From Fibrobacter succinogenes (GTDB lineage Bacteria > Fibrobacterota > Fibrobacteria > Fibrobacterales > Fibrobacteraceae): DNA of 64,000 nucleotides. Under the pieces are notes generated by a model. The model was not told the origin of the DNA, did no database searches, and was given only the letters and a program-made list of their open reading frames with translations. Shown piece by piece: positions 1,999 to 13,735 of the stretch (position 1 is its first letter; each line of letters starts with the position of its first letter). Location: positions 1-64,000 of the forward strand of contig CACXMH010000004.1 in the NCBI GenBank assembly GCA_902768715.1, written 5' to 3'. Made by a program: the position numbers and the translations under genes.

Positions 1999-2451
1999 TC
2001 AATCCAAACCCTTAGCGACCCGGTAAATTTTAAGCAAATATCGCCGAACAGGCCGGACCACGTACCAAATTTTGGCGCACAAATTCCCACAAACGCCATA
2101 AAGGGGGCGTTTTTTACCAGTTTCTCCCACCACCTGGATAGCGAGAGCCTTGACACCGTCAATACTGCAGTGCTCTCGCCCCTGAAGGTTTCCGTCCCCC
2201 ATCAGGGTGATGCGGTCGCCATCAATATCGACGATGCGGTGGACCACATGGCGGCCACCTTCTACCTGGGCCAGCACCACATGCCCGACCCGAAGAGATT
2301 GGGGCTTTACCAGCACAACGCTTTCGCGCCCCCCGATGATAAAGGGGTACATGCTCCTGCCATTTACAGGGAGCGTCACCTGCACGCCCTCGCCTACCAG
2401 GCGGATGGCTTCGGAAAGGATTTGTTCATCAGTGGGCATGTCAGTTTGCAT
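1999..2451 (-). CDS. S24/S26 (SipW-like) peptidase-family protein
   Basis: About 150 residues. The N-terminal part has the signal-peptidase-type serine motif NGRSMYPFI, then VVLVKP and VGHVVLAQ strands, then VVHRIVDIDGD. The latter places His where SPase I has Lys, as in the SipW/archaeal Ser-His branch. GDGN follows in the next strand. No clear N-terminal membrane anchor is present; the C-terminus (about 115-150) is basic and moderately hydrophobic. It is the last gene of the nucleotidyltransferase / HPr-kinase-like cassette and overlaps or abuts the preceding gene. Starts at 2457, 2451 and 2439 are all possible; AGGA just upstream does not decide. By context it may cut a leader from the small peptides encoded upstream. 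That role is inference. Confidence 0.75.
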   Translation of the reverse strand: MQTDMPTDEQILSEAIRLVGEGVQVTLPVNGRSMYPFIIGGRESVVLVKPQSLRVGHVVLAQVEGGRHVVHRIVDIDGDRITLMGDGNLQGREHCSIDGVKALAIQVVGETGKKRPLYGVCGNLCAKIWYVVRPVRRYLLKIYRVAKGLD

Positions 2452-3454
2452 CCTCATTGCCACAAGAATCAGAACGAACTGTATGGATCCCGTCGCCTCT
2501 TCGAGGCTCCAGGATGACGTTTGGATCGGAGGCCAGGATGACGTCGGTGGAAGCGACACTTTCACAGCAAAGCCGGGCAGCGGCTTTGTCAGGCAAGCAC
2601 TCCAGGTGCCACACGGGAACGGTTTTCGCCATGGAATTCTCCGTAGCGTGCAAGCCGTCGGCAAGGGAGCGGTCCCAACGCTTGCCCGAAATGCTGGTGA
2701 CCAGAGCCGCATAGGCCTGCACCCCTCGCAGCCGGACAATCTTGTTGTAGGGCGCCTGAGAAAGCAGCACAATCCCACCCACAGGAGCCTGCACATTCCT
2801 GTAACAGGGAGTCTTACCGCTCCAGGGGGAGCCGTAAACTACGGCACCGGACATTCCGTCTACATCGTCGTAAAAACGCACCACCGGATTATCGTCGTTC
2901 ATCAGTTCAGAACCTTCGATGTGCTTGAGCCAGAGCCTGGCGTGGGTGCTCTTGCCAGTGCCGCTCTTACCCAGGAACATGTAGCCCCTGCCCTGGTAAC
3001 TGACCACCGCCGAATGGAAAAGCGCTGTGCCGAACCCAGCCGTAGCCAAGGCATATAGCACCATCAGGGCGTTGTTCAAGGCGAACTTTTGCAGACGCAG
3101 GTCCTGGGCCGCACTGCCCATCAGCAGGCGGGCCTCCCGATAATCTTTAGAACAAACTAGAGTCCCCGTCGACACATCCCGCAAGAGATACTCAAAGACC
3201 GACTCCCCCGCCGCAGTATGCCCGCAGATAATGGTCTGTCCCTCGTCCTCCTGACGGATTTCTTCGGTGTAGTCGAAGGGTGCGAAAGGGAGCACGGAAA
3301 GAGAGAAAATCTGATTCCGAGTCAAGCTCGGAATGACGAAGGGGGCATAGTTGTCCATGCACTGAGCAAAGAAATCCGCGTTTCCGGCGACACTCCCGAC
3401 CACAATCACAGAGAACTCATGGTCCGCCACCTTATAGAAGCGACACTCGCTCAT
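2441..3454 (-). CDS. HPr-kinase-like P-loop ATPase
   Basis: 337 residues. Residues about 160-180 carry the Walker A loop FLGKSGTGKSTHARLW, followed by MNDDNPVV and then YGSPWSGKTPCYRN, a layout seen in HPr kinase/PEP-carboxykinase-fold proteins outside sugar-transport control. The substrate-binding and hydrophobic regions of classical HprK are not conserved, and no HPr gene is near. Relatives accompany paeninodin-type lasso peptide clusters, where the kinase phosphorylates the precursor. The start overlaps the stop of the upstream nucleotidyltransferase (ATGA), so the two are translationally coupled. Two stretches, about residues 40-55 (FVIPSLTRNQ) and the last 35-40 residues, look translated from dispersed genomic repeats. 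Fold confident, substrate unknown. Confidence 0.8.
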   Translation of the reverse strand: MSECRFYKVADHEFSVIVVGSVAGNADFFAQCMDNYAPFVIPSLTRNQIFSLSVLPFAPFDYTEEIRQEDEGQTIICGHTAAGESVFEYLLRDVSTGTLVCSKDYREARLLMGSAAQDLRLQKFALNNALMVLYALATAGFGTALFHSAVVSYQGRGYMFLGKSGTGKSTHARLWLKHIEGSELMNDDNPVVRFYDDVDGMSGAVVYGSPWSGKTPCYRNVQAPVGGIVLLSQAPYNKIVRLRGVQAYAALVTSISGKRWDRSLADGLHATENSMAKTVPVWHLECLPDKAAARLCCESVASTDVILASDPNVILEPRRGDGIHTVRSDSCGNEDAN

Positions 3455-4563
3455 AGCCCGATCCTCCGACGCTTGAACCGCAAGGGCATCAGATAAAGGG
3501 TCGCCCGCCAGTACTTCAGTTCCTTGAAAATCGCATTCATGGGGTCAAAGGGTAGCCAGCTCAAGGCCTGCTTGCGGTCCCTGAGCCACCGGACAAAGAC
3601 ATTCCTGGGCTTCTGCCGATACTTGCCAAAATTACCGCCCACCAGCGCCAAGCGGAGCAGGCGCCTCCCCCGCCATGCACAGGGCTCACAGAGCATCAAA
3701 TCCCGATCCAGCCCCAGTACCTGCTGCAACACCCACATCACCGCGCTGCAAGCGTGCAACATGCCCAGCCGTTTCATCGCTCCCGACACGTCACGACGAA
3801 CTTCATCGGTGGAATTTTTCAGCAGAATGTAATAGTCTATATATTGCCGGAGTCCGAGGCCGCCGCTGTAGAAATGCTGTTGCAGGTGGGAAAGCTGCAT
3901 CACCAGGGCAAACTTGATGCCGGGCGCGTAAAAACCTTCGGGCACCATCTGGGCGTTCAAAATTTCACGGTTCAAGAAATCCTGGAGTTCCTGGCTCCTG
4001 TAAGGGTTACCGGAAGCGGGCCTGTAATGCACCTCCGCCATGATTCCGTCCTTGGTGCGCTCCAGGTGGGCATGGTGCCAGAAACGGCCAAACTCAAGAG
4101 CCGACTTTTCAATCATCCCCATCTCGACCAATAACTGGTTGATGCTGTCGCGACCACCTTCCACCCAGATGTCGATATCCCCCGATTGACGGAGGGTCGG
4201 GTCCGGATACAGGCGGGCGTTGGCTTGCCCCTTCAAGATGGCGTTCTTGCGGCCGACCTCCGTAAACAAACGGGTGAGCCTTGCCGCCTCCTTGTTCATG
4301 AGCCCGTTCATGCCACGGATGGCCTCTACCTCGGTGGCCCAGCGCATCAGCAACTGCATGGGCGGCCGGTTTTCCTTGGGGAGCTTCTCGATACCCGCAA
4401 AGGCAATACCCAGCACCGACTGCTGTTTTGCAAGAGAATACAGGCGGGTCCATTCCTCGGGTTCGAGTTGCTGCGGAAAGTTCACACCAGAACCTTCTGC
4501 GCCAAGTCCAAGACGCAGAAGCGCAGAAAGATGCTGAAGCGTTTTCTGAGAGGGAATTCCCAT
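3451..4563 (-). CDS. Nucleotidyltransferase-family protein (PF14907 type)
   Basis: 370 residues. The core motif AILKGQANARLYPDPTLRQS followed by GDIDIWV is the metal-binding GD(I)D pattern of the uncharacterised nucleotidyltransferase family PF14907. Further along are a His-rich HHAHLER, EVHYRP, and LSHLQQHFYSGGLGLRQYID, also typical of the family. Such proteins accompany HPr-kinase-like proteins in some lasso and other RiPP clusters. The frame is open to 4620, but those residues (VMPALSGH) come from a palindromic repeat and terminator, so the ATG at 4563 is chosen. No good Shine-Dalgarno precedes it. It lies downstream of a peptide gene and overlaps the kinase gene by 4 bases. Enzymatic product unknown. 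Confidence 0.82.
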   Translation of the reverse strand: MGIPSQKTLQHLSALLRLGLGAEGSGVNFPQQLEPEEWTRLYSLAKQQSVLGIAFAGIEKLPKENRPPMQLLMRWATEVEAIRGMNGLMNKEAARLTRLFTEVGRKNAILKGQANARLYPDPTLRQSGDIDIWVEGGRDSINQLLVEMGMIEKSALEFGRFWHHAHLERTKDGIMAEVHYRPASGNPYRSQELQDFLNREILNAQMVPEGFYAPGIKFALVMQLSHLQQHFYSGGLGLRQYIDYYILLKNSTDEVRRDVSGAMKRLGMLHACSAVMWVLQQVLGLDRDLMLCEPCAWRGRRLLRLALVGGNFGKYRQKPRNVFVRWLRDRKQALSWLPFDPMNAIFKELKYWRATLYLMPLRFKRRRIGL

Positions 4564-4575
4564 GGAGTCAAGTAT

Positions 4576-4608
4576 AAAAAAAAGGAGATGCCCGCTCAAG
4601 GCGGGCAT
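4576..4608 (-). terminator. Hairpin plus U-run between peptide gene and modification genes
   Basis: On the minus strand an 8-bp perfect stem ATGCCCGC/GCGGGCAT with loop CTTGA is followed by CTCC and eight Ts. It lies after the 47-residue peptide gene and ends 12 bases before the nucleotidyltransferase start. As an imperfect terminator it would give much more peptide mRNA than enzyme mRNA. The hairpin itself is one of the window's dispersed palindromes. Confidence 0.65.
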
Positions 4609-4683
4609 GACAATGAACAAAGCCGATTCACAGCCAAACCACCCTACTAGAGGCGCTTGGCGTGACAGGGCTTGTAGAAAAGC

Positions 4684-4827
4684 CTAGGCGAGGCGGTCGT
4701 CGTTATGCGTGGGTGCAAGACCGAGCTCATCACTATATTCTACACTGCCCTCTTGCAACAGAGCTTGGCGTTCCAGCTCCACCACAGTGAGTTCCGGTGC
4801 GGTATATTCTTTCTTGTTCATTTTCAT
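4684..4827 (-). CDS. Small peptide 1, candidate modified-peptide precursor
   Basis: A 47-residue ORF starting MKMNKKEYTAPELTVVEL and ending DELGLAPTHNDDRLA. A second peptide at 9809-9958 shares the KKEY(T/S)APELTVVEL start and the E(L/F)GLAPTxND..LA end, while the middle differs. Such leader-plus-tail conservation between paralogs supports a real gene. The Y-x-x-P-x-L pattern resembles the leader motif of lasso precursors. It begins 6 bases after the stop of the 1016-residue secreted protein, whose TAG stop is part of the AGTAGGG ribosome-binding site. A nucleotidyltransferase, an HPr-kinase-like protein and a peptidase follow. Alternative start at 4821. No signal peptide. Existence likely; role as a modified-peptide precursor is inference. 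Confidence 0.72.
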   Translation of the reverse strand: MKMNKKEYTAPELTVVELERQALLQEGSVEYSDELGLAPTHNDDRLA

Positions 4828-4833
4828 TAAGCC

Positions 4834-7800
4834 CTACTTTACAATCACCCTCTTGCCGTTGTGGTAGTAGGTTCCACGAGTTTCGGGCTTGCTGTTCAGC
4901 TTGCGGCCCTGCAGGTCATACCAGCGGTCCATGCGGAACTCGCCCGTTCTGGTGTTCATAACACCCCGTTCCACAACGTTGCCCTGTTCGTCCTGGACCA
5001 TCACGTTGATTTCGTCGGGCAGTTCTCCTGCAAGGCTTGCACCGACTGCCGACTTGGATGCCCCAGAATTGCCATTGTACACCAGGTAGGCACGCATGGG
5101 GCGGAGCCAGGCATTCTTGCCCGCCTTGACAAACTTACCGGCCTTGAAATCAGTCCCGTTAATATTGACATCCTTCGCGACAAATCCGTATGCGTAACCC
5201 AATTCCGGGTCTCCTTCGGCAAACTGACGCTTGGCATAGACACCCTTGAACAGCCAGTCACTATCTCCAATTCGAACATCATTAACGGAGGTCTTTTCAA
5301 GAGTAACAGTATCGTTAAAGACAAGACTTGAACCTCTCGTAATCATGATATACGGAGTATTGGCCGCAACATTCTTGACTGCGCTTACGTAAATGGAGTC
5401 AAATCCATCGGAAATCCGGGTTAGTTCATAGAAAGTTCCATTCTCCACATTTGACGAATCAATAGAGAACGGAAGCACGATTGTCGAATACTTGCCTATT
5501 TCGAAATCACGGTCGTAAACCAAAGAAGACACCTTTATGTTTCTGGGAATATCTATGGCTTCCAAAGAAGAACCGTCAATGACAGCCTCGTTGTGGCTCT
5601 CATATTCGTAAACCGTAACGCCACCGAACTTTTCCACCTTAATCAGGCCTTCTACCCAGTGGGGGTAAAGAATCAGGCCTGCATTATCAGTGTAGGTAGC
5701 GCCCAATTCATAAGCCTTGTCGCCACCGTCGCTAAGGCTCCAGCCATCCTGACCGTAACCCTTGCGAGTATAGGAGGCTCCCTTCAACGTGTATGCCACA
5801 TCGTGGGTTTTCTTTTCGGCAGGGACAAGTCCGGAACCATTGGCACCAGCATTATACTTGATCTCGTAAGTCTTTACCGACCAGCCAGCATACAGAGTCT
5901 TGTTGCCCGTCGTTCCCGTAGAAATCTGGGTAGCCCTGTTGGTCTTTTCACTATCGTAGTACCAGCTATCGAAATCGGCGCCATCCTTGGTGGGGGCCAC
6001 AAGCACAATATCCTTGCTCTCGATAGTGTATAAAGACGGATTCAGAGCACTGTTCTTACCGCCATCCAGCACATAGTCGATGGAAAATTCCGTCAATGAC
6101 CAATGGGCATGGAGAACGATGCTTTCTGTAATGCTCGTTTCGTCAAAGTCGAACTTGACACCGGCATCGGTGTACCAACCTTCAAACTCATAACCGATAT
6201 CGGCGGTGGGGTCCTCGGGAGCGGCGGTGGTTTCCCCCGCCTTCACCTTCACAAAGCTCACCTTGGTCTTGCCATGGCCTTCGGCATGGAAGGTCACCGT
6301 ATAGACAACTTCTGCAACCCACACAGCATAGAGGGTCATATCTTCGGTAGCCACAACAGTAAGGGTATTCAGGTCAACCACATTGTCTACCGTGGCATTG
6401 GGCGTCAGAGCCCAACCTGCAAAGTAGGCAAGCTGGTCACACTCACCATTCACAATCTCACCTACGCAGTAAGAGGTAGGCAGGGGCTCAATCCCTTCGA
6501 CGGTGATGGAGCTGTCCTTGGCGACACGCTTCGTCTTTTCGGAAACGCCCTCCGACGGGAAAACACCGGGGGCAACATTGAAGGTAATCTCGAAGGTCGG
6601 ATCCCAAACGGCATAGACCGTCGTAGGGCCATTTGCAACACCCAAGTCCACATCGGCTTCGGTAGCAGTTGCAGACAGCGACCATCCGGCAAAGGACTTA
6701 CCGCTAAAAGCAGGAATCCCGATTTCGTCGGCCGTAATCTTCTGACCGCTGGTGCGGTACTTTACGGTCGTAGCACCGGCAGCAAACGTACCGCCATTGG
6801 CATTAAAGACAATCTTGTATCCATCGGCACCATGACCGTTAAGGACTAGAGAATTCAAGCCCACAGACCAGGGAGAATCCTTGTCGCATACACCATCGGT
6901 CAAAGTTCCACCGTTCAGGCTACAAGCGATTTGTTCGGCATTGACCTCTTCAACACCTTCGGTCTTGCCCTTAGTTTTGCCACCACTGGTCGTGAATCCA
7001 AGACCCGAATCAAACTTGTCTTCATCGTAATAGAGATTATCGAAAGTGACATTTCCCTTGTACTGGTGTCCAACGATAGCGCCAACCGCACCTTCACCAT
7101 TAGAGACAAGGCTTTCGCCTGCATAGACGCAGGAGGAAATTTTCACCACACCGTTATTACCGAAATTCTTGGTATAGCCGGCAATTCCACCAACGTAGCC
7201 AATTCCATTGGCATCTATATTGACAGCGCTGAAGCAGTTCTTCACGGTACCGCCACCAACATTGCCCACAATTCCGCCCACAGCCTGGCCATCGCCGCTA
7301 GTGGTAATCTGACCCGTGGTGTAGCAGCCCTCGATTAGACTGGAATTTACGCTCTGCCAACCCACCACCGTACCGATGGAAATGGGCTTTTCAATCACCT
7401 TGTCCGGTTGTCCTAAACCGCCCTTGCCATAGCCGAGAACTTCGATATCTTCAAGTATCAGATTCCGGACCGTACCGCTAAAACACCCGATAAAGCCGAT
7501 ATTCTGGGCCATGTCCTTATCGTTATACTTTGCAATTAGTTCTTCGGCGTTGATGTACAAATTAAAGATGACATGGTTGTCACCGTCAAAAATGCCCTTA
7601 TAGTTATTCTTGTTGTTGCCCGCTGCAATAGGAGTCCAAAGCTTGTGACCCATGTCCAAATTGGCAGTCAGCTTGGCATTGTAATTGACCTTTCCGCTAT
7701 TCACCTGCTGGGCAAACCAGGCTAGCTTTTCCTCTGTGTCGATGATGTAGTAATCCGTGCCGCCAATATTGGATACTTGTGCGGCCTCGATAGAGGAGCC

Positions 7801-7884
7801 GTCCCAAACGGCAAAGGCCTGCCCCACTCCGAGCAGGACAAAAAGAAGCAATGGTACGAGATTCAGAATTTTCAAATTTTTCAT
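4834..7884 (-). CDS. Large secreted repeat protein (GLUG-like and InlB-type repeats)
   Basis: 1016 residues. The signal peptide MKNLKILNLVPLLLFVLLGV ends at AFA. Residues about 30-300 contain GLUG-like turns (VGGIVGNVGGGTVKNCFS, GYVGGIAGYTKN) preceded by FDGDNHVIFNLYI, a beta-helix style array. Residues about 355-750 carry several InlB B-type repeats (FNANGGTF...FAGWSLS...VYAVW). The last 240 residues are shared with the genes at 8035 and 10097 and end MDRWYDLQGRKL...YYHNGKRVIVK, resembling C-terminal sorting tails of Bacteroidota and Fibrobacter secreted proteins. The start has a GAGGCGG ribosome-binding site. The promoter at 7921-7949 has a CRP-like site upstream. First gene of the transcript carrying peptide 1. 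Surface location and adhesion role are inferred. Confidence 0.85.
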   Translation of the reverse strand: MKNLKILNLVPLLLFVLLGVGQAFAVWDGSSIEAAQVSNIGGTDYYIIDTEEKLAWFAQQVNSGKVNYNAKLTANLDMGHKLWTPIAAGNNKNNYKGIFDGDNHVIFNLYINAEELIAKYNDKDMAQNIGFIGCFSGTVRNLILEDIEVLGYGKGGLGQPDKVIEKPISIGTVVGWQSVNSSLIEGCYTTGQITTSGDGQAVGGIVGNVGGGTVKNCFSAVNIDANGIGYVGGIAGYTKNFGNNGVVKISSCVYAGESLVSNGEGAVGAIVGHQYKGNVTFDNLYYDEDKFDSGLGFTTSGGKTKGKTEGVEEVNAEQIACSLNGGTLTDGVCDKDSPWSVGLNSLVLNGHGADGYKIVFNANGGTFAAGATTVKYRTSGQKITADEIGIPAFSGKSFAGWSLSATATEADVDLGVANGPTTVYAVWDPTFEITFNVAPGVFPSEGVSEKTKRVAKDSSITVEGIEPLPTSYCVGEIVNGECDQLAYFAGWALTPNATVDNVVDLNTLTVVATEDMTLYAVWVAEVVYTVTFHAEGHGKTKVSFVKVKAGETTAAPEDPTADIGYEFEGWYTDAGVKFDFDETSITESIVLHAHWSLTEFSIDYVLDGGKNSALNPSLYTIESKDIVLVAPTKDGADFDSWYYDSEKTNRATQISTGTTGNKTLYAGWSVKTYEIKYNAGANGSGLVPAEKKTHDVAYTLKGASYTRKGYGQDGWSLSDGGDKAYELGATYTDNAGLILYPHWVEGLIKVEKFGGVTVYEYESHNEAVIDGSSLEAIDIPRNIKVSSLVYDRDFEIGKYSTIVLPFSIDSSNVENGTFYELTRISDGFDSIYVSAVKNVAANTPYIMITRGSSLVFNDTVTLEKTSVNDVRIGDSDWLFKGVYAKRQFAEGDPELGYAYGFVAKDVNINGTDFKAGKFVKAGKNAWLRPMRAYLVYNGNSGASKSAVGASLAGELPDEINVMVQDEQGNVVERGVMNTRTGEFRMDRWYDLQGRKLNSKPETRGTYYHNGKRVIVK

Positions 7885-7920
7885 AAAATCCGCCTCTACC
7901 CCTTGTTTTACCTATATTCC

Positions 7921-7949
7921 AATATAGAATATTCCATACTAAAACGCAA
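7921..7949 (-). promoter_or_regulatory. Predicted promoter of the 1016-residue secreted protein
   Basis: On the minus strand, -35 TTGCGT (7944-7949), 17-bp spacer, -10 TATATT (7921-7926), giving a start near 7914. The CRP-like palindrome at 7995-8014 is then centred about 90 bp upstream, as at the two sister genes. Confidence 0.5.
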
Positions 7950-7994
7950 GAATCAACAAGAAAAACATAAGTTTTCTGACAGATTTTTGTAAGA

Positions 7995-8014
7995 AACGTG
8001 ACTTTCGTCACGTT
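7995..8014. promoter_or_regulatory. CRP/FNR-like palindrome A
   Basis: Perfect 20-bp inverted repeat AACGTGACTTTCGTCACGTT containing GTGA-N6-TCAC. It lies about 90 bp upstream of the predicted start of the 1016-residue protein gene. It also sits 20 bp after the stop at 8035 and could form a hairpin with a GAAA loop on the minus strand, but no U-run follows, so an operator is the better reading. Confidence 0.55.
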
Positions 8015-8034
8015 CTTTTGCGAATTTTCAGCGG

Positions 8035-9531
8035 TTATTTTACGATAACACGGCTACCGTTATGGTAATAGGTACCCTGGGTTTGTGGCTTGCGGTTCAG
8101 CTTACGGCCCTGCAGGTCATACCAGCGGTCCATGCGGAACTCGCCCGTTCTGGTGTTCATGACACCCCGTTCCACAACATTGCCCTGTTCGTCCCGAGCC
8201 AACACGTTGATTTCGTCGGGCAGTTCGCCTGCAAGGCTAGCACCGACAGCAGACTTGGCGACTCCTGAATTGCCATTGTACACTAGGTAGGCCCGCATGG
8301 GGCGGAGCCAAGCATTCTTGCCCGCCTTGACAAACTTACCGGCCTTGAAATCAGTCCCGTTAATATTGACATCCTTTGCAACAAACCCGTAGGCATAGCC
8401 CAGCTCCGGATCTCCTTCGGCAAACTGACGCTTGGCATAGACACCCTTGAACAGCCAGTCACTATTTCCAATCCAAACATCATTAAAGGATGTCTTTTCA
8501 AGAGTAACCGAGCCGTTAAAGACAAGCCTTGAGCCTCTCGCAATCATGATATACGGGGTATTGGCCGCAACATTCTTGACAGCGCTTACGTAAATGGAGT
8601 CAAATCCATCGGAAATCCGGGTTAGTTCGTAGAAAGTTCCATTCTCCACATTTGATGAATCAATAGAGAAAGGAAGCACGATTGTCGAATACTTGCCTAT
8701 TTCAAAAGTCCTATCCAACTGCACAGAGGAGACTAAAATATTCTCGGGGATTTCGAGGGTTTCCTGCGAAGAAGCATCGACGACAGCACTCCTGGTAGAG
8801 CCCTTTTCGGTAATCGTAACGGCACCGTATTTGCTCACGATTGTGACGTTGTTTCCGCCAGCGCCTACAAGTGAACTAGCATTACCCTCGTAAGAAACAC
8901 CGGTAAGGGTCACGTCGCCCGTGATGTTGCCGCAGATTCCACCGACATTGACGGATCCTTTGCCTTTATTAGTCACATCGATATCGCCACCACTTTCGCT
9001 GATAGTCCCGGATGTGGCCGTACCCACAATTCCGCCGGCATCAATGGCATCGCCTCTCTTCCTTCCATTAATAGTCACCGTTCCATCAACCACATGGACA
9101 TTCTCTACAACGCCGCCATTTAGTTCACCTACGGCAACCGCAACAGAAACACCACTTGCGGAAAAAAGGTTCCAGTCGGTCAATTCATATGTACTTATGT
9201 CAGGCTTATCAAAAAAAATGTCCCTCAACACACCGCCATCTAATTTGGCGATAAAGGCAACATTGTTGGTAAAATAAATATTTTGCGAAATAGTCAAGTT
9301 TGAAATAGTGTGTCCCTGGCCATCAAAAACACCCTTAAATCCATCCTCACACAAGGGCGAGAAAGATTCTCCCTTCAAATCGATATCACGAGTAATCAGA
9401 ACCGTATCAGTTTTTGCGCATTTTGTGAGTCTAACCAGATTCCGTGCCGAGCCAATTTCAGTAGTCGTGGCGAAAGCAGAAACTGTCGCCAGTAAAAAAA
9501 GAACAAGACTACTGATTTGGGATTTTGTCAT
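8035..9531 (-). CDS. Secreted GLUG-like surface protein
   Basis: 498 residues. Signal peptide MTKSQISSLVLFLLATVSAFA. Residues about 25-230 hold a short GLUG-like region (FDGQGHTISNLTISQ, DAGGIVGTATSGTISESG, VNVGGICGNITGDV). Residues about 255-498 are almost identical, in protein and DNA, to the C-terminal 240 residues of the gene at 4834-7884 and end YDLQGRKL...YYHNGSRVIVK. InlB-type repeats are absent. Upstream in-frame codons to 9555 are ignored because the ATG at 9531 follows GTGGGGTC and starts the signal peptide. Unlike its two sisters it has no peptide gene behind it. It has its own promoter with the CRP-like site. Function unknown; likely surface or secreted. Confidence 0.82.
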   Translation of the reverse strand: MTKSQISSLVLFLLATVSAFATTTEIGSARNLVRLTKCAKTDTVLITRDIDLKGESFSPLCEDGFKGVFDGQGHTISNLTISQNIYFTNNVAFIAKLDGGVLRDIFFDKPDISTYELTDWNLFSASGVSVAVAVGELNGGVVENVHVVDGTVTINGRKRGDAIDAGGIVGTATSGTISESGGDIDVTNKGKGSVNVGGICGNITGDVTLTGVSYEGNASSLVGAGGNNVTIVSKYGAVTITEKGSTRSAVVDASSQETLEIPENILVSSVQLDRTFEIGKYSTIVLPFSIDSSNVENGTFYELTRISDGFDSIYVSAVKNVAANTPYIMIARGSRLVFNGSVTLEKTSFNDVWIGNSDWLFKGVYAKRQFAEGDPELGYAYGFVAKDVNINGTDFKAGKFVKAGKNAWLRPMRAYLVYNGNSGVAKSAVGASLAGELPDEINVLARDEQGNVVERGVMNTRTGEFRMDRWYDLQGRKLNRKPQTQGTYYHNGSRVIVK

Positions 9532-9602
9532 TTTGACCCCACTATCCCCAAACACCCGATTTGTTAGTTAGATTTCGCCTTTTACTTTATCTTGTATGGA
9601 AT

Positions 9603-9631
9603 AATTTATATTATTCTAGATCGGAAGTCAA
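9603..9631 (-). promoter_or_regulatory. Predicted promoter of the 498-residue secreted protein
   Basis: On the minus strand, -35 TTGACT (9626-9631), 17-bp spacer, -10 TAAATT (9603-9608), start near 9596. The sequence layout matches the promoter at 13773-13801. Three GTAAG-type half-sites with an 11-bp period (beginning at 9664, 9653 and 9642, reading the minus strand) lie between it and the CRP-like site. Confidence 0.65.
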
Positions 9632-9678
9632 GACTTTTTTACAAATTACTTACGAAAATCTTACAACAAGGACAAAAG

Positions 9679-9696
9679 AAGTGACAAGTGTCACTT
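9679..9696. promoter_or_regulatory. CRP/FNR-like palindrome B
   Basis: AAGTGACAAGTGTCACTT, a perfect 18-bp inverted repeat with GTGA-N6-TCAC. Its centre is about 91 bp upstream of the predicted start of the 498-residue protein gene. Confidence 0.6.
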
Positions 9697-9706
9697 AATA
9701 AAACCA

Positions 9707-9731
9707 TAAAAGAAGCCCGCTCAAGGCGGGC
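9707..9731 (-). terminator. Hairpin after peptide 2
   Basis: Minus-strand stem GCCCGC/GCGGGC with loop CTTGA, followed by TTCTTTTATGG. It has the same core as the hairpin after peptide 1 but a poorer U-run. It closes the transcript of the 1212-residue protein and peptides 3 and 2. The 80 bases between it and peptide 2 can form further GC hairpins and hold no gene. Confidence 0.5.
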
Positions 9732-9808
9732 ATAGCAACGACCGGGGACTACCCCCGTTCGTTCGATAATGAATCCAGAAGCCCCGTCACGACAGGGCAA
9801 ACGGTAGC

Positions 9809-9958
9809 TTAGGCCAGATGGTCGTTAGGCGTGGGCGCGAGACCGAATTCAGCACCATCACCCTCGAAACTACTACAAAGCGGCTGCAACTGGTCGGCAA
9901 GCTCCACTACGGTCAGTTCCGGAGCGGAATATTCTTTCTTTTCTTTTTCATCCAACAT
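9809..9958 (-). CDS. Small peptide 2, candidate modified-peptide precursor
   Basis: A 49-residue ORF, MLDEKEKKEYSAPELTVVEL at the start and AEFGLAPTPNDHLA at the end. It is paralogous to peptide 1 (4684-4827): 13 of 14 positions match in KKEY(T/S)APELTVVEL, and the GLAPTxND tail is shared, with a divergent middle that here contains a Cys (LCSS). The ATG at 9958 follows a good GAGGTG ribosome-binding site with 5-base spacing. It lies 13 bases after peptide 3 and before a hairpin. No signal peptide. It would need the modification genes at 2.0-4.6 kb to act in trans if it is a modified peptide. Function unknown. Confidence 0.72.
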   Translation of the reverse strand: MLDEKEKKEYSAPELTVVELADQLQPLCSSFEGDGAEFGLAPTPNDHLA

Positions 9959-9971
9959 TTAATCACCTCAT

Positions 9972-10088
9972 TTATGGATTACTGATAATCACCGTAATAT
10001 CCGACGGCAAATCGCTCGGCTCTACCAAAACCGTCGGTCCGTCAAAAAAAAGAACTTGCATCTCCGGGATAACATATTCCTTTTTCAT
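9972..10088 (-). CDS. Small peptide 3, YxxP-type leader peptide
   Basis: A 38-residue ORF beginning MKKEYVIPEMQVLFFDGP and ending SDITVIISNP. It shares only the leader pattern KKEYxxPExxV with peptides 1 and 2; the rest is different and hydrophobic to acidic. It starts 8 bases after the stop of the 1212-residue secreted protein. The AGTAGGG ribosome-binding site includes that stop codon, exactly as for peptide 1. Peptide 2 follows closely. Short MKKxYxxPxxxV peptides of unknown role are familiar in gut Bacteroidota and Firmicutes (general knowledge). Coding status is supported by ribosome-binding site, position and leader similarity. Confidence 0.62.
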   Translation of the reverse strand: MKKEYVIPEMQVLFFDGPTVLVEPSDLPSDITVIISNP

Positions 10089-10096
10089 GCAAAACC

Positions 10097-13000
10097 CTAC
10101 TTTACAACCTCTCTCTTACCGTTATGGTAGTAGGTTCCCTGGGTCTTCGGCTCCCCTTTCAGGCGACGGCCCTGCAAATCGTACCAGCGGTCCATGCGGA
10201 ACTCGTCGGTACCCGTATCCAAGACATCACGCTGGGTCATGTTACCCTGCGGATCCACGACCAGGACCTCAAGCTCTTCGGGAGGAACCATGTATGTGGA
10301 ACGATCCAGGCCAGCAGACTTCGACGCCGCAAGAGACGGATCGTACACCAGATAGGCGCGCATGGGACGTAGCCAGGCACCTGTTCCCGCCTTGACAAAC
10401 TTGCCCGCAGTGAAATCATGTCCGTTGATGGTCACGTTCTTGGCCACAAATCCGTATGCGAAACCCAATTCCGGGTCTCCTTCGGCAAACTGACGCTTGG
10501 CATAGCTGCCCTTGAAATACCAGGGCTTGCCTTCAACCCTAGACTCGTAAATGGTCCTTTCTGTCGCCTTTAGGGTCACATTTCCTGTAAAGGTGATGTT
10601 CTTAGCCGTTGTCTGCACAACATAGGGGGTATTGGCAGCAACAGATCCATTCACATGCCAGATAGTCGCATTAGAGAAATCATCGGCAACACCGGTAACA
10701 TCGTAGAAAGAGCCTCCCTCTACATTCAAGGTGTCAATAGCGAAAGGAAGCATAATCGTGGAGAACTTCCCTACCTCAAAATCACGGTTATAGGTTACCG
10801 AGGTAACGCTGATATCCGTAGGAATCGTGATGGATTCCATGGAGGAGCCGTCAATCACCGCCTCCTTACGGCCGTCAGTGGCGTAAGTGTAGATGGTAAC
10901 AGCACCGTACTTGACAGAATCACGGCTTTCCACCCAGTGAGGATACAGGGTAATGTTTACATTGTCAGTATAAGCAAACCCCACATCATAAACCTTTTCG
11001 CCACCGTCGGTCAAAGACCACCCATCGAGGGTGTAGTTTGCAAGCGTAAACTTATTATTTGGTATGTTCAAAGCATACGACGCATTCAGATTCTTTTGTT
11101 TTTCCACCTTACCATTTTTATATCCAGAATTTGTCAATTTGGCACCGGGCTGGAATGTAATTACGTTATACCATTTGGCATAAAGCGTCATATCCTTATC
11201 TATACCCTGAAGATATCGTATAGAAGTCTTAAAGGTGGGCTCCAAATACCAATCACTCATCTTAACAGGGTCACCAGAAACAAACGCGTTTTCCAACTTA
11301 ACCTTTTCCGGACCTGTATAGGTCGAAGAATTTCTATTTGTCGCCTCAACACCATACAATTCGTAAGTTATCGTATACGTTCCACAAGAAGTCCAATGCG
11401 GGAACAACTTGAGATCTGCATTATCAGCATACTTAGCACCAAACGCATAATCAACGCCATATCCTTCCTGACCATAATCCACCTTAGACCATCCATCAAA
11501 CGTACACCCACCAACAGCAAACTGAGGCGGATCCTCCCTAAGCGTAATCGTGTCGCCATAGTTTTTCGTTACACCATTCACCGTTGCAGAAATTACATTC
11601 CCAGAAAGGTACTGAATAGTGTAGGTTGCGAGAGTCCACTTTGCATAAATTTTCTTGTCACCCGTAGAGCCCGCACCAATTTGGGTAGCAGGGTTCGTGA
11701 ATTCTTGGTCATAGAACCAGCCATCGAAAGTTGCGCCTTCCTTGGTCGGAGCAGCAAAGACAATGTCGCCACTATTGATATTGTACGTAGACGGATTTTC
11801 CTCAGCATTAACGCCACCAGCCATTTCATATTCAATAGAATAGGATTCAATTTCCCACCTTGCATGGAGAACCAGATTACCCTTTAACGAGTCAGCAAAG
11901 GAATATTCGTTTTCCTCTGTGCAATTTTCGACTTCACACCATCCGACAACTTTGTATCCATCATCCGTAATGACCGTATCAGGACGAGAAACCGTTTCTC
12001 CTTCAGTAACCATCCTAACAAAATGGACATCCGTCTTTCCATGTAACGAGGCATCAAAGGTGACGGAGAATGTCGGAGCCTTTGTCCAAACGGCATACAG
12101 GGTAACAGGAGCAGTCACGTCAATGCCAGAAAGATGAAGCGTGTCATTTGCACCAATCTCATCATCTTTACCAAATGACTTTGACTCATAAGCCCAGCCG
12201 GTAAAGTAATATTTCACCTTATTTTCATCTGTCCCAATTTCATATACCGTGGGAACAGAAAAACCATCTACAGAAACCGTGCCATGCTTTGCCACAGAAA
12301 TTTTCTTGATTTTACTTCCATCAGGGAATATTGCGTCGGAGAAATCCCCTTCAGAATCAGTCTTAAAAGTCACCTCATAAAAATCATACCAAACAGCATA
12401 AATAGTCCTGGCAGCACTGGCTACACCGAGATCTGAAGCTGTATCTGCATCTGCTGTTACAGCCCATCCGGCAAATTTCTTTCCTGTACGCGTAGGCTCA
12501 CCAATTTCATCTGCCGTAATTGCGGCACCCTTCGCTAGAATTTTCGATGTTTTTGCTCCAGAAGCAAACGAACCTCCATTCCCGTTGAAAATGATTTTGT
12601 AGCCATCAGAACCATTCATGGAGAGACTGGATTGGCCAACGGACCAAACTTCGGATGTGTCTCCGGTACATACACCTTCATTCCATGTACCGCCATTCAA
12701 GGCACAGACAACATCTTCCGAATTAAGATTATCGATCGAATCGGCATTGAAAGTCTTGCCATCAGGCAATTTTCCAATACCCGGACAAACATCAGGATTT
12801 TCAAATTCTTGACAAAAATCATCCGAATAGTACAAATTTTCCGTTGTCAAAGTTCCCTTAGAATTTTCATAGCTACCCGCTACGGCACCGATGGAACCAT
12901 CAACCGTGTAAAGATGGTCTCCAGAATAAACACATGATGTCAGGGTAACATTACCATCGTTACGAATAGCCCCAACGACACCACCCACATTGGTATTCGC

Positions 13001-13735
13001 ACCACTAGCGGTCACGCTTACGGAACTGACGCAATTGGATATCGTCACATGCTTCACATTTCCCGCGATACCGCCGACACGGTTTGTTGCACCGCTCGTT
13101 TCAATGGAACCAGACGCCACGATATTTTCAATTTTTACAACCATTTTATCAGTCGCACCAACCCAGCCGACAAGAGAACCCACAGAAATCGGCTTATCAG
13201 ACCCAAGACCCGTGGTTCCAGAAGATGCCGCAGCATATATTTGGACATCCTTCAAGATCAAGTTCTTGACCGTTGCGTTGTTAGAAAGAATACCAAACAA
13301 TCCAATATTTTGGGCATAGGCAGTAACACCATTCTTGGATTTTCCAGTAATACCGGATATATCACTGTTGATTTCGGATGTATTAACATAAAGATTCGAA
13401 ATGGTAAAGCCCTGACCATCAAAAGTTCCTTTAAATCCAGTATCTTCACCAGTACCCGACCCAATAGGAAAAAACAGTTTCCCCTGCATATCAAGGGACT
13501 TGGTCAACTTGAATTTTTCTGAACTTAAAGCCTTGTTCGTTACATTGCAAGAAACCCACGCCAACTTTTCCGGCGTATCAATCTTATAGTAGCCGTCTGT
13601 TGTATCCTTGTCGGCGGCTTGTATCAAGAAATCACCCCAACCGGTGCTATTAACACAGTTAAGAGCAAACCCCTGGCTTGCCAAAACCAGGCCGGCAATT
13701 AGAACAAATTTGTTCAAAAATGACCAATTTTTCAT
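10097..13735 (-). CDS. Large secreted repeat protein (GLUG-like and InlB-type repeats)
   Basis: 1212 residues. Signal peptide MKNWSFLNKFVLIAGLVLAS ending near GFA. Residues about 30-320 form a GLUG-like region (FDGQGFTISNLYVN, NRVGGIAGNVKHVTISNC, TNVGGVVGAIRNDGNV). Residues about 375-980 hold a long series of InlB B-type repeats (FNGNGGSF...FAGWAV...IYAVW; LFPHW; LYAKW). The last 240 residues match the two neighbouring secreted proteins and end MDRWYDLQGRRL...YYHNGKREVVK, a likely sorting tail. A GTG at 13744 is possible, but the ATG at 13735 has AAGGTG at 8 bases and starts the signal peptide. Two peptide genes follow immediately. Likely a surface or secreted adhesin-like protein; ligand unknown. 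Confidence 0.85.
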   Translation of the reverse strand: MKNWSFLNKFVLIAGLVLASQGFALNCVNSTGWGDFLIQAADKDTTDGYYKIDTPEKLAWVSCNVTNKALSSEKFKLTKSLDMQGKLFFPIGSGTGEDTGFKGTFDGQGFTISNLYVNTSEINSDISGITGKSKNGVTAYAQNIGLFGILSNNATVKNLILKDVQIYAAASSGTTGLGSDKPISVGSLVGWVGATDKMVVKIENIVASGSIETSGATNRVGGIAGNVKHVTISNCVSSVSVTASGANTNVGGVVGAIRNDGNVTLTSCVYSGDHLYTVDGSIGAVAGSYENSKGTLTTENLYYSDDFCQEFENPDVCPGIGKLPDGKTFNADSIDNLNSEDVVCALNGGTWNEGVCTGDTSEVWSVGQSSLSMNGSDGYKIIFNGNGGSFASGAKTSKILAKGAAITADEIGEPTRTGKKFAGWAVTADADTASDLGVASAARTIYAVWYDFYEVTFKTDSEGDFSDAIFPDGSKIKKISVAKHGTVSVDGFSVPTVYEIGTDENKVKYYFTGWAYESKSFGKDDEIGANDTLHLSGIDVTAPVTLYAVWTKAPTFSVTFDASLHGKTDVHFVRMVTEGETVSRPDTVITDDGYKVVGWCEVENCTEENEYSFADSLKGNLVLHARWEIESYSIEYEMAGGVNAEENPSTYNINSGDIVFAAPTKEGATFDGWFYDQEFTNPATQIGAGSTGDKKIYAKWTLATYTIQYLSGNVISATVNGVTKNYGDTITLREDPPQFAVGGCTFDGWSKVDYGQEGYGVDYAFGAKYADNADLKLFPHWTSCGTYTITYELYGVEATNRNSSTYTGPEKVKLENAFVSGDPVKMSDWYLEPTFKTSIRYLQGIDKDMTLYAKWYNVITFQPGAKLTNSGYKNGKVEKQKNLNASYALNIPNNKFTLANYTLDGWSLTDGGEKVYDVGFAYTDNVNITLYPHWVESRDSVKYGAVTIYTYATDGRKEAVIDGSSMESITIPTDISVTSVTYNRDFEVGKFSTIMLPFAIDTLNVEGGSFYDVTGVADDFSNATIWHVNGSVAANTPYVVQTTAKNITFTGNVTLKATERTIYESRVEGKPWYFKGSYAKRQFAEGDPELGFAYGFVAKNVTINGHDFTAGKFVKAGTGAWLRPMRAYLVYDPSLAASKSAGLDRSTYMVPPEELEVLVVDPQGNMTQRDVLDTGTDEFRMDRWYDLQGRRLKGEPKTQGTYYHNGKREVVK

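Follow-up and report, generated by a model that had tools for sequence, protein, structure and literature searches.

Small peptides with a conserved leader encoded behind surface-protein genes in Fibrobacter, and a candidate pathway for their maturation and export

A 64,000-nucleotide stretch of a Fibrobacter metagenome-assembled genome (MAG; F. succinogenes assembly GCA_902768715.1, contig CACXMH010000004.1, positions 1 to 64,000; hereafter the window) has, on its minus strand from 13.7 to 2.0 kb, genes for three exported surface proteins, three small peptides and three enzymes. The peptides belong to a family whose members are dispersed over Fibrobacter genomes, nearly always directly behind the gene of an exported protein with a shared C-terminal domain, and appear to be served by one common set of kinase, peptidase and exporter encoded elsewhere in the genome. 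On balance, we read these genes as a trans-acting maturation and export system that is guided by a RiPP recognition element (RRE; RiPP, ribosomally synthesized and post-translationally modified peptide) and whose substrates would be the small peptides encoded behind surface-protein genes. The initial annotation of the window had singled out positions 1,999 to 4,827 as a possible new modified-peptide cassette; the observation itself is confirmed, and the interpretation given to it is partly supported.

The peptide family

With a profile made by aligning 24 peptides, members of the family are detected in 56 of the 61 Fibrobacter genomes searched, and 24 genomes belonging to other genera of the phylum gave no match. 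Copy number runs from 0 to 13 per genome, and the copies are dispersed. The peptides are 36 to 55 residues long, lack a Sec signal and have no curated family, and their genes are small enough for gene callers to overlook. The lasso-like YxxP leader recognized in the initial annotation is present and conserved across the family, where its consensus is Y-x-[A/K]-P-x-M-x-V-[V/I]-x-L...L-L-x-[G/A/S]-S. Position statistics from 120 peptides (70 from Fibrobacter and 50 from Bacteroidota, numbered from the leader Tyr) show an invariant Pro at +3, Met or Leu at +5, Val or Ile at +7/+8 and Leu at +10. Leu-Leu follows at +16/+17 (96% and 87% of the Fibrobacter peptides), position +19 is mostly Gly, Ala, Ser or Cys, and a Ser stands at +20 in 93% of the Fibrobacter and 72% of the Bacteroidota peptides. 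The remainder is a variable tail with a median of 19 residues, rich in Asp/Glu (22 to 25%) and poor in Lys/Arg (5 to 6%).

In the window's clade, synonymous change is near saturation (proportion of synonymous differences, pS, about 0.65), while the proportion of nonsynonymous differences (pN) is 0.30 to 0.35. Substitutions are biased to synonymous, with a pN/pS of 0.44 for the leader and of 0.62 for the tail. These values point to a translated product with a constrained leader and a freer tail, and the selection on the peptide frame that the initial annotation implied is borne out.

Pairing with a surface-protein C-terminal domain

At 20 dispersed loci of the genus, nearly all peptides lie directly 3' of an exported protein with the shared ending ..[WY][YF]D[LM]xGRKL..KP..KGxYYxNGKKVIxK. 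Profiles of the C-terminal domain (about 270 residues) and of the peptide were searched in 13 genomes, and a pair was counted when the peptide lay on the same strand within 200 nucleotides (nt) downstream of the domain gene or the domain gene within 400 nt upstream of the peptide. By these measures, a peptide follows 38 of the 41 full-length domains, and a domain gene precedes 46 of the 50 Fibrobacter peptides; the rough chance expectation is about 3 in 10,000 per peptide. At the loci examined individually, the gap between the two genes has a median of 16 nt and is mostly 5 to 25 nt. Peptide and domain are also co-inherited (Mantel r 0.55, p 0.0005).

The C-terminal domain has no curated family: no Pfam or NCBIfam model matches it, 26 domains having been compared with sorting-domain models at an E-value of 10. 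Its AlphaFold2 model has a predicted local distance difference test score (pLDDT) of 83.5; no PDB entry matches it below E 0.07, the best Z being 2.5 over 48 residues. This fold search establishes neither a new nor a known fold.

The enzyme set

The proteins proposed to act on the peptides are mostly single-copy and comprise a kinase of the HPr kinase fold, an S24/S26 peptidase, a PqqD protein (the RRE) and an ATP-binding cassette (ABC) transporter, often together with a PF14907 nucleotidyltransferase. In most relatives these genes adjoin one another, in the order [surface protein-peptide(s)]-nucleotidyltransferase-kinase-S24-PqqD-ABC transporter. The initial annotation had held the RRE to be absent, but PqqD lies within the cluster in nearly all well-covered relatives, and in the window's clade the set is split in two loci, with PqqD and the ABC transporter elsewhere in the same genome (G000:C7:15358-17288). 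This PqqD has 89 residues and matches PF05402 at E 8e-14 (52.2 bits; cut-off 23.4). Judged from sequence, the system has two features of an RRE-dependent RiPP pathway, namely a discrete PqqD and a short precursor with a conserved leader and a variable C-terminal part.

The catalytic motifs are well preserved. P-loop, His and Asp-Asp motifs are intact in all 23 kinases, and the DxD motif in all 17 nucleotidyltransferases. The window peptidase has intact Ser (GRSMYPF) and His (VHRI) motifs; in the peptidases compared, GxSMxPF is found in 20 of 22 and [VI]HR[IV] in 21 of 22, the exceptions (L042/L043) being mis-cut open reading frames (ORFs). The ABC transporter has membrane and ATPase domains and no peptidase domain of its own, which makes the S24/S26 enzyme the natural candidate for leader removal.

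Against Pfam Hpr_kinase_C the kinase scores 15 bits, below the gathering score of 33.3, and a PDB sequence search with the kinase profile and the peptidase returned nothing. The kinase model (pLDDT 84.7; predicted template modelling score 0.83) can be aligned along its whole length with PEPCK (Z 15.2, root-mean-square deviation 5.0 Å, 261 residues) and matches Lactobacillus casei HprK/P (1jb1; Foldseek E 6e-5). The kinase is thus predicted from its model to belong to the HPr kinase/PEPCK fold superfamily, in a family different from Hpr_kinase_C.

A DUF5662 (PF18907) gene often adjoins the main locus, commonly behind the ABC transporter (L036:4484-5020 and equivalents). Extra PF14907 copies (L088:11987-13129, L089:6054-7187, L098:6150-7283 and L041:10379-12698) either accompany other peptide/surface-protein pairs or form tandem copies at the main locus, which suggests peptide-specific versions.

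Co-occurrence across the genus

Kinase and peptides are both found in 28 of the 30 good-quality genomes of the genus (completeness of 90% or more, contamination of 5% or less), and both are missing from the other two, G001 and G014 (exact p about 0.0023 within the genus, phylogeny not corrected for). Every good-quality genome with peptides also has the kinase. At genome level, the link between enzymes and peptides on which the initial annotation depended is not refuted, since no good-quality genome has the kinase without peptides. PqqD, the orthologous exporter and full-length C-terminal domains are missing from G001 and G014 as well.

The discordant genomes (G018, G027, G064 and G066) all fall outside the quality cut. 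At the G027 locus (L130, G027:C2, 8093-11262), nucleotidyltransferase, PqqD and ABC transporter genes are present and the kinase and S24 genes are missing, possibly through decay of the system or an assembly fault. G032 has a distant kinase match only and no peptide of the family; there, a divergent kinase-PqqD-S24 trio (L131, G032:C83, about 7551-10852) lies beside Wzz-like/polysaccharide genes and is possibly a second, different system.

Occurrence in Bacteroidota

At least 573 relatives were retrieved from named genomes with the kinase profile; the 80 best come from Fibrobacter, Prevotella, Segatella and other Bacteroidales, with an identity outside the genus of about 50 to 62%. Among the 59 loci with enough flank, PqqD is encoded in 55, S24 in 50 and the ABC transporter in 44, most commonly in the order kinase-S24-PqqD-ABC. 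Peptides of the family are present in eight of the nine Bacteroidota genomes tested, many of them 5 to 13 nt behind a surface protein with the same ending, as in Prevotella sp. MA2016. Both the peptide-protein pairs and the gene set recur in Prevotella, Segatella and Bacteroidales. A quick, midpoint-rooted kinase tree places the Fibrobacter sequences together among those of Bacteroidota, a topology compatible with horizontal transfer between rumen bacteria.

The locus in the window

The four genes of the initial annotation, for a peptide, a nucleotidyltransferase, an HPr-kinase-like protein and an S24/S26 peptidase, lie where it had placed them; they are on the minus strand. Its inventory holds for peptide A and the enzymes, but it had overlooked peptides B and C and the surface-protein gene ahead of peptide A. 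All features below are on the minus strand and are given in the direction of transcription.

Surface protein C (10097..13735; 1212 residues) is an exported GLUG/InlB-repeat protein with the shared C-terminal domain at 10100-10915. Peptide C (9972..10088; 38 residues, MKKEYVIPEMQVLFFDGPTVLVEPSDLPSDITVIISNP; peptide profile E 6e-10) begins 8 nt after it and is followed by peptide B (9809..9958; 49 residues, MLDEKEKKEYSAPELTVVELADQLQPLCSSFEGDGAEFGLAPTPNDHLA; E 6.6e-16) and, 3' of the latter, by a terminator-like palindrome (9715..9731). Surface protein B (8035..9531; 498 residues) carries the same C-terminal domain (8038-8841), which is 81% identical to that of surface protein A, and has no peptide of its own; it is probably a duplicate whose peptide was lost or never existed. 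Surface protein A (4834..7884; 1016 residues) has a signal peptide, Flg_new repeats (PF09479, E 8.6e-38) and the C-terminal domain at 4837-5640. According to the profile, InlB-type Flg_new repeats occur in two of the three surface proteins.

Peptide A (4684..4827; 47 residues; leader KKEYTAPELTVVELERQALLQEGS, tail VEYSDELGLAPTHNDDRLA) starts 6 nt past the stop of surface protein A. The next gene, that of the nucleotidyltransferase, is 120 nt away, and a second terminator-like palindrome (4588..4608) lies in between. Peptide A fits the surface-protein unit better than the enzyme unit because of this short upstream gap and the longer, palindrome-bearing interval downstream, and the peptide genes seem to come last in surface-protein transcription units. 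Both palindromes are consensus matches only, of a kind found 19 times against 12.3 expected. The four-gene cassette proposed as a natural unit was rejected, the peptides being dispersed and following surface-protein genes.

The three enzyme genes are those of the PF14907 nucleotidyltransferase (3451..4563, best start 4563; 370 residues; E 1.3e-44), in which the LKGxANxxLYP and GDIDIWV motifs are intact, the HPr-kinase/PEPCK-fold kinase (2441..3454; 337 residues), with motifs LFHS, GKSGTGKST, NDDNP and GSPWSGKT, and the S24/S26 Ser-His peptidase of SipW/archaeal type (1999..2439; 146 residues; PF00717 E 8e-5, signal peptidase I model E 2.6e-5). The named relatives of the locus are Fibrobacter MAGs.

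Palindromic repeat-like elements occur at 3313-3338 and 890-914. One (ATTCCGAGCTTGACTCGGAAT) is part of the kinase reading frame and falls in a loop around residue 40, at which the relative L052 has a different repeat-like insertion (CHPGLEPVPDSFRDA); the other is upstream of a DHH gene.

Proposed mechanism

From the families involved, a sequence of steps can be proposed. PqqD would bind the YxxP leader and present the peptide to the kinase, which would phosphorylate a Ser or Thr; the best candidate is the Ser found 20 residues past the Tyr, which is near-invariant, or else a residue of the tail. Kinases of the PadeK type, homologous to the one described here, phosphorylate a Ser of the paeninodin lasso precursor (PMC9266682). 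Where present, the nucleotidyltransferase may put a sugar or nucleotide on the phosphate; PsmN is associated with hexose addition in pseudomycoidin (PMC9266682). The S24/S26 enzyme would then cut at LLx[GAS]S and the ABC transporter export the tail. In the least certain step, the tail would work together with, or upon, the C-terminal domain of the surface protein encoded beside it, for example to anchor, seal or stabilize that protein at the cell surface. A role in anchoring or stabilizing through this domain is favoured because the pairing is one-to-one and because domain and pathway are lost together.

Taken to its full extent, the proposal describes a surface-display strategy of Fibrobacter and rumen Bacteroidota. 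Each large adhesin-like protein would be escorted by its own peptide, which would be phosphorylated (or further decorated) by the HPr kinase-fold kinase with PqqD as guide, trimmed by the Ser-His peptidase, exported by the dedicated ABC transporter and joined to, or inserted in, the C-terminal domain of its partner, thereby fixing the partner on the cell surface. We put forward this extended version only tentatively.

Several observations weigh against a dedicated maturation system for surface-protein peptides. G018 and G066 have peptides and no kinase, G064 has a kinase and no peptide, and G027 keeps PqqD, the ABC transporter and a single peptide without the kinase. Four of the 50 Fibrobacter peptides, and about half of those found in Prevotella, have no surface gene ahead of them, and three of the 41 full domains, including that of surface protein B in the window, have no peptide. 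The domain correlates with the tail only slightly better than with the leader, which indicates co-inheritance and not specific contact; tail-specific co-variation with the domain is therefore not claimed. The nucleotidyltransferase is found in 21 of the 59 loci with enough flank, mostly from Prevotella and other Bacteroidota, and is thus regarded as accessory.

Alternative explanations

The main rival is a stand-alone product: the peptides may be ordinary RiPP-type natural products, such as bacteriocins or signals, that a minimal kinase/RRE pathway produces, with the surface protein only as a carrier, receptor or hitch-hiker. A leader/core pattern, an RRE, an exporter and a leader peptidase are typical of a RiPP pathway, peptides that stand alone do exist, mainly in Prevotella, and up to 13 variants per genome would fit a diversified product set. 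However, the near one-to-one link with one exported-protein domain, seen at many loci and in two phyla, is atypical of bacteriocin clusters, no immunity gene recurs, and the surface domain vanishes together with the pathway. We consider this explanation possible but doubtful.

Less probable still is a peptide without any exported product, which would serve as a cytoplasmic or periplasmic chaperone, pilot or regulator of the surface protein, with phosphorylation as an on/off switch. The short intergenic gaps suggest translational coupling and would suit such a partner, as would the one-to-one stoichiometry, the small acidic tail and a kinase related to classically regulatory Ser kinases. This unlikely scheme leaves the conserved exporter and leader-peptidase genes without a role, and the leader shows a recognition motif of PqqD/lasso type as well as a small-x-small site.

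If this were a lasso peptide system whose lasso enzymes are unlinked, the YxxP leader would be accounted for, and kinase, nucleotidyltransferase and PqqD are all known in lasso clusters (PMC9266682, PMC7533575); the PqqD described here bears a weak resemblance to lasso PqqD models (22.6 bits against a cut-off of 70). However, the lasso B2 protease (PF13471), whose absence the initial annotation had noted near the peptide, is matched in none of 10 genomes by a search that was positive in control genomes, and by eye the tails have no common pattern of Gly/Ala-1 and Asp/Glu-7-9. A lasso system was rejected on the missing protease and is close to refuted. The equally improbable view that the peptide frames are not genes but chance ORFs, located in a repeated 3' stretch of surface-protein genes, for which one may cite that most peptides lie behind related genes and that a duplicated 3' region alone could give similarity, was rejected on the distribution of the family inside and outside the genus and on the synonymous bias at nearly saturated synonymous change, and it also faces the protein-level conservation of YxxPxM...LLxxS between phyla, the stand-alone and tandem copies and the loss of peptides together with enzymes.

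Significance

The chemistry proposed for the RRE-guided system is of a known kind because every one of the enzyme families already occurs in lasso clusters or in other PqqD/HPr kinase cassettes. Neither the dedicated pairing with surface proteins nor the dispersed-substrate architecture, nor any description of the combination, was found in the literature searched, most subscription journals lying outside the scope of that search. The system appears to be an undescribed means of supplying surface proteins with a processed peptide. RiPP-like maturation, so far seen as natural-product chemistry, would in this way be tied to a family of large proteins on the surface of dominant rumen bacteria, and the proposal makes a testable prediction on adhesin display by Fibrobacter and Prevotella. 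Thousands of discrete lasso-like RREs with no accompanying lasso enzymes have been reported with RRE-Finder (PMC7470986), and the system described here may account for part of them.

Comparison with known systems

Type IX secretion C-terminal domains (TIGR04183/BTD of F. succinogenes; PMC6851124) share with the present domain their place on exported surface proteins and a basic ending, here ..DLxGRKL..KGxYYxNGKKVIVK. In contrast to those sorting domains, the conserved unit described here is about 270 residues long, and none of the 26 domains matches their models at E 10. Type IX secretion is also present in genomes without the peptide system: the translocon protein SprA (SprA_N) is found in 10 of 10 genomes, with or without it.

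Two cassettes with curated models come close in composition. The HPr-rel-A system (NCBIfam) likewise pairs an HPr kinase-like protein with a PqqD-like peptide chaperone, but the kinase here reaches 13.4 bits against a TIGR04352 cut-off of 200 and PqqD 14.9 bits against a TIGR04353 cut-off of 35. In the SynChlorMet cassette, ScmC (TIGR04249) is the closest sequence model for the kinase and a PqqD relative is present as well, but the scores are 24 bits against the ScmC cut-off of 125 and 14.5 bits against the ScmD (TIGR04248) cut-off of 100. The SynChlorMet cassette includes radical SAM genes; none turned up in the loci described here, where no search aimed at them was made. Membership in HPr-rel-A, SynChlorMet and TIGR04183 was rejected on the curated cut-offs.

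The peptidase recalls the SipW-TasA type, in which a Ser-His S26-type signal peptidase is dedicated to a few surface-related substrates. The likeness lies in the peptidase type and the small surface-related substrate set; the enzyme described here differs in that no N-terminal membrane anchor is evident and the proposed substrate is a peptide of 36 to 55 residues without a Sec signal.

The clusters of phosphorylated lasso peptides (paeninodin PadeK, ThcoK/SyanK, pseudomycoidin PsmK/PsmN; PMC9266682) share an HPr kinase-type kinase with a PF14907-type nucleotidyltransferase, a YxxP leader and a discrete PqqD-type RRE. Unlike them, the system in Fibrobacter has a Ser-His S24/S26 peptidase in place of the B2 protease, which was found in none of the ten genomes searched, and its peptides, with acidic and linear-looking tails, are dispersed and tied to surface-protein genes.

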